Origin: Clostridiales bacterium
GTDB lineage: Bacteria; Bacillota_A; Clostridia; Christensenellales; Aristaeellaceae
Direction of reading: 5' to 3'
DNA: 6,444 nt
NCBI GenBank assembly: GCA_012514855.1
Contig: JAAYZL010000233.1
Location: 1-6,444 of the forward strand
The number at the start of each line of letters is the position of its first letter. Position 1 is the stretch's first letter. Shown here one piece after another: positions 4,940 through 6,236 of this stretch. A program made the position numbers and the translations under genes. The notes beneath the pieces were generated by a model. The model saw only the letters and a list, made by a program, of their open reading frames with translations, had not been told where the DNA came from and searched no databases.

Positions 4940-4969
4940 TTGACATCTGTTTGCACGCAATGCTATAAT
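4940..4969 (+). promoter_or_regulatory. Consensus extended -10 promoter of the hicA-hicB-secB-like operon
   Basis: TTGACA (4940-4945) is a perfect -35. After 18 bases comes a perfect TATAAT (4964-4969), preceded by TGC, which makes an extended -10. Transcription should start near 4976, leaving a leader of about 35 bases. Such an unusually strong promoter fits an autorepressed toxin-antitoxin operon. Confidence 0.9.
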
Positions 4970-4997
4970 CAATTGCAACTAAGCCACGGTTGCAACC
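4951..4997. promoter_or_regulatory. Cluster of three TTGC/GCAA palindromes, candidate HicB operators
   Basis: Three palindromic sites share the TTGC/GCAA core. TTGC-AC-GCAA (4951-4960) lies between the -35 and -10, TTGCAA (4973-4978) lies at the predicted transcription start, and GGTTGCAACC (4988-4997) lies in the leader. Their centres are 20 and 17 bases apart. A dimeric ribbon-helix-helix repressor such as the HicB encoded here would be expected to bind sites like these. The sequences are seen; the binding is inferred. Confidence 0.6.
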
Positions 4998-5010
4998 TTG
5001 GAGGATGGCC

Positions 5011-5274
5011 ATGAGCCAGATTGACAAACTAAAGCAAAGGCTTCTCTCCCGCCCTGCCGATTTTACGTTTTCCGAGATGACGCGCTTGTTGGAGCATCTC
5101 GGATTTACTTGTCACAACAAGGGGAAAACATTGGGATCGCGCGTATTGTTCCATCGGATGGCGGATGGCCTATCCATTGTTTTGCATAAACCGCATCCCG
5201 GGGACATAATGAAGAGGTACGCAGTCGATCAAGTGGTGAAGACGCTTATAGAAACGGGGGATTTCGTTGAGTAA
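5011..5274 (+). CDS. hicA: HicA-family toxin (putative mRNA interferase), first gene of a TAC-like operon
   Basis: This 87-residue protein has the length and layout of HicA toxins: an N-terminal helix, a GF-x-C strand, a GS motif (G42-S43) and a HKPHPG segment (59-64). HicA proteins are double-stranded-RNA-binding-fold ribonucleases that cleave mRNA. The usual G-S-H-H motif reads G-S-R44-V here, so the classical catalytic histidine is replaced. H48, H59 and H62 remain. This may mark a HicA subfamily rather than a dead toxin. The ATG at 5011 is chosen because GGAGG (5000-5004) sits six bases upstream; an ATG at 5005 and a TTG at 4990 would lie too close to, or upstream of, that site. The gene overlaps hicB by eight bases. 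Base composition is less GC-rich than the preceding genes, suggesting acquisition. Confidence 0.82.
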   Translation: MSQIDKLKQRLLSRPADFTFSEMTRLLEHLGFTCHNKGKTLGSRVLFHRMADGLSIVLHKPHPGDIMKRYAVDQVVKTLIETGDFVE

Positions 5275-5752
5275 TTTGCTGACGTACAAGGGTTATTCAA
5301 CCAAGGTGGAATACAGCGCCGAAGACAATTTGCTGTATGGAAAAATCGAGGGAATCGCGGACCTTGTGAACTTCGAGTGCGATTCCGCATCGGATGCGGA
5401 GCGGGCTTTTCAGGAGGCGGTTGACGACTATCTGGTTTTTTGCGAGGAAGTCGGAAAGGCAGCCAACAAGGAATACAAGGGTTCCTTTAACGTGAGGATT
5501 TCTCCGAGCTTGCATAGAGAACTCGACCGCAGGGCCTATGCCGAAGGCACATCCATGAACCAGCTGATTGAAAGGGCAATCCGGGCGTACATTGAGGGAT
5601 GCAGAACCATGAATGGCGGAGAATCCGTCGGCAGAGGCAGAAGCGAAATCCTTGAGCAAATCACCGGACAATGGGCGGCGGCGAGCGATTCATGGCGGCA
5701 GAATCTGCGCCTGGTTCAAGGCGGCTTGGTAAGCAGCCGCTTTTATCGCTAG
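5267..5752 (+). CDS. hicB: HicB-family antitoxin with ribbon-helix-helix domain and long C-terminal tail
   Basis: This 161-residue protein should neutralise the HicA encoded upstream and repress the operon. Residues 1-65 match the HicB N-terminal fold that contacts the toxin (YKGYSTKVEYSAEDNLLYGK, then EAVDDYL). Residues 71-110 form a ribbon-helix-helix domain (FNVRISPSLHRELDRRA...GTSMNQLIERAIRAYI). About 50 further residues (112-161) lie beyond the point where such HicB proteins normally end, with W136, W143, L147, L149, V150, L154, F159 and Y160. Next to a SecB-like gene, this tail is a candidate chaperone-addiction segment. The start is TTG, six bases after GGGGG (5256-5260). It overlaps hicA by eight bases, and no ATG is available before the conserved N-terminus. 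A TTG at 5276 is an alternative. Translational coupling with hicA is likely. Confidence 0.85.
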   Translation: MSNLLTYKGYSTKVEYSAEDNLLYGKIEGIADLVNFECDSASDAERAFQEAVDDYLVFCEEVGKAANKEYKGSFNVRISPSLHRELDRRAYAEGTSMNQLIERAIRAYIEGCRTMNGGESVGRGRSEILEQITGQWAAASDSWRQNLRLVQGGLVSSRFYR

Positions 5753-5768
5753 AAGGGAGACGGTTTTG

Positions 5769-6179
5769 ATGCGCCTTGGGGATTACTTTTTGGACGAATA
5801 CCGATTTGCGCTTAAGAAGGTTGCGTATGCGAAGATAAGCGCCGAGCCCTCAAAGGACAGTGCCCTCAAAATCACAGACCGTGTCGAGATTGCCAAACGC
5901 AAGCCGGAAGAAGTATCGGCTCTTTTTTCCAGGCGCGTGTTTTTCGAGCCGGAGGCGATGTTTGACGTGTGTGTGACATACGACATCGTCCTCAAAGTGA
6001 TGGGCGGAAAAGATATTTCTTCTGTGTCGGATGATGATTTCGCACATGCTGTTCTCGAATCAGAAGTTTTATCGGCTCCCGGTTCGTGTGCCTCTTTGCT
6101 CATTTCCGAAATTACCATGATGGGCACTGGATCGCCCATTGTCATTCCTCCGCGCCCCGTGAAAAAATCCGACGCATAG
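5769..6179 (+). CDS. SecB-like chaperone of a toxin-antitoxin-chaperone system
   Basis: This 136-residue cytoplasmic protein resembles SecB-family chaperones. The strand-rich core includes RVFFEPEAMFDVCVTYDIVLKV (about 56-77), followed by the stretch ASLLISEITMMGTGSPIVIPP (about 108-128). That stretch corresponds to the SecB element that ends in a Pro-Pro motif. The length fits a small SecB-like protein. Classical SecB serves protein export in proteobacteria, whereas solitary SecB-like genes beside toxin-antitoxin pairs act as dedicated chaperones of the antitoxin (as for Mycobacterium tuberculosis HigBA-Rv1957). The gene lies 16 bases after hicB in the same direction with GGGAG (5755-5759) nine bases before the ATG. 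A TTG one codon upstream (5766) is also possible. It is probably transcribed from the hicA promoter. Function is inferred from family resemblance and context. Confidence 0.75.
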   Translation: MRLGDYFLDEYRFALKKVAYAKISAEPSKDSALKITDRVEIAKRKPEEVSALFSRRVFFEPEAMFDVCVTYDIVLKVMGGKDISSVSDDDFAHAVLESEVLSAPGSCASLLISEITMMGTGSPIVIPPRPVKKSDA

Positions 6180-6206
6180 AAATCATTGAAGCGACCCCCA
6201 AACAGC

Positions 6207-6236
6207 CGCCGCATCTCTCCGGTCGGGGATGCGGCG
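6207..6236 (+). terminator. Hairpin after the SecB-like gene, probable terminator
   Basis: CGCCGCATC (6207-6215) pairs perfectly with GATGCGGCG (6228-6236), and a few further pairs are possible inside the 12-base loop. The sequence after it (CTTCCATTTATTCC) is only moderately T-rich, so termination may be incomplete. It lies 27 bases after the stop codon. Confidence 0.55.

Follow-up and report, generated by a model that had tools for sequence, protein, structure and literature searches.

Does the third gene of a compact hicAB operon encode a chaperone on which the antitoxin depends? The question is raised by a locus in the window, by which we mean the whole analysed stretch of 6,444 nucleotides (nt) on contig JAAYZL010000233.1 of a Clostridiales bacterium (assembly GCA_012514855.1). 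A first-pass annotation had read this locus as a toxin-antitoxin-chaperone (TAC) system, an interpretation that is supported by the analysis described below. In our judgement the operon is very probably a HicAB-type TAC module with a chaperone-dependent HicB, a reading supported by the three genes, the tail of HicB, the predicted SecB fold of the third protein, the conserved gene order and an operator-like repeat.

The three genes and the predicted fold of the third protein

The coding features of the operon are listed here (window coordinates; aa, amino acids; RHH, ribbon-helix-helix):

5011..5274, + strand: hicA, toxin (predicted mRNA-cutting endoribonuclease), 87 aa; ATG start at 5011, stop at 5274
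5267..5752, + strand: hicB, antitoxin with an RHH DNA-binding domain, 161 aa; TTG start at 5267, stop at 5752
5600..5749, + strand: C-terminal tail of HicB, approximately residues 112-161, putative chaperone-addiction (ChAD) region; the RHH match ends at residue 110
5769..6179, + strand: SecB-fold protein (by predicted structure), 136 aa, putative dedicated antitoxin chaperone; ATG start at 5769, stop at 6179

The open reading frame (ORF) coordinates confirmed the tight operon that had been described before, with all three genes on the + strand, an overlap of 8 nt between hicA and hicB, and a gap of 16 nt between hicB and the third gene. The TTG start of hicB at 5267 agrees with the N-termini of HicB relatives. 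HicA matched PF07927 (E 7.9e-8, 32.7 bits against a cut-off of 27) and the 'toxin' family PHROG 8887 (9.6e-19), and HicB matched PF05534 (1.8e-17) and RHH_1 (1.2e-7), both above the Pfam cut-off, as well as PHROG 9151, 'HicB-like antitoxin' (5.3e-36). The identities first assigned to the two proteins therefore hold: they form a type II toxin-antitoxin pair, both members of which exceed the Pfam cut-offs, and with HicA, HicB and RHH domains all present, the pair is of the RHH-antitoxin type of HicAB.

For the third protein, only chance-level matches were obtained in Pfam, NCBIfam, PHROGs, PADLOC and the PDB sequences; the candidates from phmmer and hmmscan, the best PHROG at E 0.031, yeast LSP1 at E 0.036 and Pil1 at E 0.12, were rejected as such. 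A single-sequence search of 5.8 billion proteins returned the protein itself only, tblastn in phages and plasmids gave no match, and a single-sequence search of viral contigs gave no relative. When the protein database was searched with a profile of the family (see below), 36 proteins were listed, including that of the window, three of which carry a source name, in each case 'hypothetical protein'.

AlphaFold2 run on the single sequence produced a useless model (pLDDT, the confidence score of the program, 39), and with 58 aligned sequences a confident one (pLDDT 91.4). The latter, a monomer, has the SecB topology, in which two helices come after an antiparallel sheet of four strands, and its best matches among solved structures (Foldseek/VIA) were SecB and Rv1957, the SecB-like TAC chaperone of Mycobacterium tuberculosis. 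The top structural match was 5mtw, Rv1957 with a ChAD peptide, with 8% identity over the structural alignment. Judged by this model, the third protein has a SecB fold, so that hicA and hicB would share their operon with the gene of a SecB-like chaperone. The first-pass annotation had named a predicted structure lacking this fold as what would speak against it, and the structure prediction went in its favor.

HicB tails and the family of the third gene

To place the operon among its relatives, loci were fetched through HicB, taking the best 80 of at least 553 genome matches and the best 80 of 92 viral matches. A first seed search by regular expression yielded 2 loci with a related third protein, and profile iteration on the locus ORFs extended these to 27 plus the window, the third protein of which, held out of the profile, matched the family at E 2.3e-24 among 20,788 ORFs. 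The 27 other loci, which include the near-identical pairs L089/L090 and L085/L154, have the same three-gene order, each chaperone-family protein being encoded downstream of its HicB, and in 26 of them the third gene overlaps hicB or starts at most 25 nt past its end. A HicA match was present upstream in 28 of the 28 chaperone loci (partial in L008). Within these best-match lists, the family occurred in 15 of the 80 genome loci, all from records titled as Bacillota lineages, e.g., Lachnospiraceae, Oscillospiraceae and Clostridiales, and in 12 of the 80 viral loci. Since all 27 loci were reached through HicB, this recurrence shows what adjoins such HicB proteins and not how often the chaperone is accompanied by HicB.

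Compared to its two-gene homologues, the antitoxin carries a C-terminal extension. Of 163 HicB rows, 32 were left out for lack of the FNVR motif and 6 for having less than 300 nt downstream, and reduction of the loci at 80% identity resulted in 99 non-redundant HicB loci, the window included. The chaperone gene was found downstream in 22/42 long-tailed versus 1/57 short-tailed loci of this set (Fisher p 1.6e-9), where 'long' is a threshold of 70 residues after FNVR that was set after looking. The median HicB length was 163 aa with the chaperone gene and 114 aa in the short-tailed group. By analogy, a tail combined with a downstream chaperone gene is the layout of chaperone-addicted antitoxins. 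In two short-tailed chaperone loci, L036 and L054, which were kept in the counts, the HicB frame is cut short and the ORF after it starts within the chaperone domain; these are apparently broken module copies or assembly errors.

That the presence of the chaperone gene tracks the HicB tail, and that the gene recurs at close spacing in the 27 other HicAB loci, argues against an ordinary two-gene HicAB, in which HicB would suffice alone and the SecB-fold gene would be a co-transcribed neighbor with its own job, such as a general or export chaperone. We consider this explanation unlikely, although 56 of the 57 non-redundant short-tailed HicAB loci manage without the chaperone gene, and the TAC chaperones that have been tested are able to stand in for SecB in export (PMC6377645). 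The same explanation gains from four chaperone relatives without nearby HicB, which came from genome draws from two orders, with the chaperone in 7/394 and 3/392 genomes. Leaving out 2 centre genomes, the draws contained eight chaperone loci, three with HicB, one cut by a contig end, and four (L168-L171) with no HicB in approximately 1.5 kb on each side. The family is thus not exclusively a toxin-antitoxin partner. In the tree, these four relatives group as a single clade within the HicAB-linked part of the family, for which loss of the toxin pair fits as well as an independent job; the window has a long branch, which makes its own placement uncertain. As a separate observation, the L168-L171 clade could represent a solitary chaperone in its order. 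The argument of the first-pass annotation that Firmicutes lack SecB, and that the chaperone is hence a dedicated one, was too strong, as PF02556, the Pfam SecB model, had matches in 4/197 genomes of one order, 2 of them over the cut-off, and four family members have no HicB close by.

Chaperone and HicB distances correlated (r 0.82, 23 loci), as expected for a module that is inherited together. Together with the shared operon, this correlation would also suit a direct co-antitoxin or co-repressor, with the third protein blocking HicA, or acting on HicB and tuning operator binding, and SecB-fold proteins do have peptide-binding surfaces, Rv1957 having been solved with an antitoxin peptide. We regard such a role as very improbable, since the closest structural matches of known function are chaperones, one of them solved with an antitoxin tail peptide, and the library scan detected no DNA-binding domain in the third protein.

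Several observations weigh against a TAC module with a chaperone-dependent HicB. Besides the choice of the tail threshold after looking, the chaperone family was absent in 20/42 non-redundant long-tailed loci (21/47 before reduction). The earlier suggestion that related loci should have the third gene is borne out by the 27 other loci and not by these long-tailed rows, nor by nearly all short-tailed ones. No shared motif was seen when sought by eye across the HicB tails of all loci, and the correlation of distances may be explained by common descent. The draws add the four chaperone loci without HicB, and their three HicB-bearing loci were already represented among the HicB-fetched ones, the chaperone of L167 being identical to that of L154. 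On the sequence side, PF02556 was matched at E 1 or better by 0/25 family members, so that the proposed profile check against SecB was negative; SecB was likewise missing from the scans of these 25 proteins, in which no Pfam or NCBIfam match exceeded chance, and from a PDB search with the family profile, and aligning the family to a single E. coli SecB sequence with hhalign gave no match (probability 0.4%). Because the PF02556 and hhalign tests were negative, we label the protein SecB-fold and do not assign it to the SecB family; the original term 'SecB-like' is upheld by the predicted structure and its best PDB matches, and not by the sequence libraries. Finally, we infer tail binding, the dependence of HicB on the third gene, operator binding, the trigger and the biological role, and for the dependence of HicB, this too belongs on the negative side.

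What follows long-tailed hicB genes outside the family was also inspected. In 16 of 21 such rows, another ORF of 92-175 residues starts between -25 and +40 nt of the hicB end. Among the downstream proteins of ten of these 16 rows, 8 had no Pfam match, and those of L004 and L099 had chance-level matches only. Nine loci (L104, L107, L109, L124, L129, L130, L138, L146 and L147) have a long-tailed hicB followed by an overlapping or abutting ORF of 129-175 aa; no Pfam family was matched by the seven of these ORFs that were scanned (all except those of L130 and L146). An alignment of nine out-of-family downstream proteins, from the same loci with L102 in place of L146, displayed almost no conservation. 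It is possible that these ORFs encode further divergent TAC chaperones.

The operator-like repeat and the genomic setting

The non-coding features of the operon, all read from the sequence, are as follows:

4940..4969, + strand: sigma-70-type consensus promoter TTGACA-18 nt-TATAAT; 12/12 matches, TG before the -10 element (consensus scan)
4974..4994, + strand: operator-like inverted repeat TGCAACT-N7-GGTTGCA between the -10 element and the ribosome-binding site; putative HicB (RHH) site
5000..5004, + strand: Shine-Dalgarno-like GGAGG of hicA
6207..6236, + strand: intrinsic-terminator-like hairpin 3' of the operon, 12 pairs, weak T tract (consensus scan)

The promoter that had been noted ahead of the operon was recovered as a match to the consensus. 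The repeat at 4974-4994 fits the operator pattern TGYAACT-N7-AGTTRCA, which was chosen after looking and is scored out of 14 positions, at 13/14 with one mismatch; it is the single match in the window, and none occurred in 200 shuffles. A simple palindrome before hicA was discarded as stand-alone evidence, the best one of the window being matched or beaten by 9/100 shuffles, and GGTTGCAACC was discarded as an operator signal, since it is not unusual within the window. The operator call is based on the pattern common to relatives. Loci were scored if HicA was matched, the upstream sequence was long enough and the upstream region was distinct. A repeat of at least 12/14 was present upstream of hicA in 26/26 loci with both tail and chaperone (window included), 2/2 short-tailed loci with the chaperone, 15/15 long-tailed loci without the family and 41/69 short-tailed loci. 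It was thus found with and without the chaperone, indicating that it marks a HicAB branch and not the chaperone, and repeat-bearing hicAB promoters came from records titled Bacillota, Bacteroidetes, Chlorobiaceae, Spirochaetes and others. We consider TGYAACT-N7-AGTTRCA a candidate operator motif of this HicB branch, to which HicB may bind.

Terminator-like sites numbered 4 in the scanned region versus 2.1 (standard deviation 1.3) in shuffles, which is not a clear excess. Scanning the window against Rfam and for tRNAs gave no matches. The third-position GC content was 0.55-0.63 in the three operon genes versus 0.89-0.93 in three neighboring genes, and this GC-poor module (5011-6179) sits between the gene of a histidine kinase and the one that follows. 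The drop in third-position GC suggests that the module was gained horizontally. The histidine kinase of the window reached 51% identity in 391 genomes drawn from the class of an Oscillospiraceae genome, the one class covered by this search, and a Bacillota origin of the window is likely.

Six viral loci were scanned, with one to three neighbor genes each, and a phage-type neighbor match was found in five of them: a terminase near the module in L090 and L091, a tape measure in L093, and an integrase in L084 and a DnaB-like helicase in L085. Integrases and DnaB-like helicases are not specific to phages. The neighbors in L082 matched an ABC transporter only. In L090 (3998-7116), the HicAB-chaperone module lies directly before the genes for the small and large terminase subunits.

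Proposed mechanism and known systems

In the mechanism that we propose, HicA would be an mRNA-cutting toxin, and HicB would bind HicA and repress the operon from the inverted repeat at 4974-4994. The tail of approximately 50 residues probably leaves HicB unstable or unfolded for as long as the SecB-fold protein is not bound. As long as free chaperone is there to hold HicB, HicA would be neutralized; when the chaperone is drawn off, whether by proteins that misfold under stress or, as in CmdTAC, by proteins of a phage, HicB would be lost, and HicA would halt translation. A broader and much more tentative idea is that HicAB alarms in Bacillota and their phages are controlled by an unannotated family of SecB-fold proteins. 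The chaperone would then be the sensor, titrated off the HicB tail by unfolded proteins of an infecting phage, with loss of HicB and arrest of translation by HicA as the result; phage-borne copies would exclude rivals, and the HicB-less clade would be a released general chaperone. If true, the L090 copy, next to terminase genes, would be an example of a module that keeps rival phages out. Since the family is invisible to the SecB profile and PF02556 is rare in the tested Bacillota order, chaperone-controlled toxins may be under-counted in Bacillota and their phages. The link between tail and chaperone also provides natural tail-plus/tail-minus HicB pairs for studying the origin of chaperone addiction.

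One system for comparison comes from Methylomonas methanica, a gammaproteobacterial species. TAC systems with HigBA, MqsRA and HicAB have already been described, and Mmet-HicAB/SecB-TA of M. methanica MC09 works as a chaperone-controlled toxin-antitoxin system in E. coli (PMC5105189), so the initial statement that HicAB versions are mainly predicted needs correction. This system resembles the operon in having HicA, HicB with a C-terminal extension and a SecB-like chaperone gene (PMC5105189). It is set apart, by description, in that its chaperone is approximately 53% identical to that of Vcho-TAC (PMC5105189), whereas the family in the window matches no Pfam or NCBIfam model above chance level. 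Mtb-TAC of M. tuberculosis (HigB1-HigA1-Rv1957) shares the order toxin, antitoxin, SecB-like chaperone and an antitoxin tail, but its toxin and antitoxin are of another family, HigBA. CmdTAC of E. coli ECOR22 is likewise a toxin-antitoxin-chaperone system with a SecB-like chaperone, which is drawn off by a phage capsid protein; its toxin is an mRNA ADP-ribosyltransferase (PMC11618068), in contrast to HicA (PF07927) in the window. Two-gene HicAB of class 4 likewise has HicA and HicB with a C-terminal RHH domain, and its palindromic operator has a putative counterpart in the repeat at 4974-4994, but it consists of two genes, with no third gene described in the available part of PMC10865869, whose main text contains neither 'chaperone' nor 'SecB'. 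The words 'chaperone' and 'SecB' do not occur in the main text of the 2024 HicA survey or the HicAB review. Earlier surveys relied on the SecB Pfam profile to detect TAC chaperones, and on a separate search for those missed by it, which gave 33 such sequences, and TAC chaperones outside PF02556, as well as SecB sequences in Firmicutes, have been noted previously (PMC4257090). A HicAB TAC in Bacillota was not found described in the open-access literature that was searched. HicAB-type TAC systems are therefore not new; the apparent novelty is a clade, present in Bacillota and in viral contigs, with a chaperone that is missed by sequence profiles.
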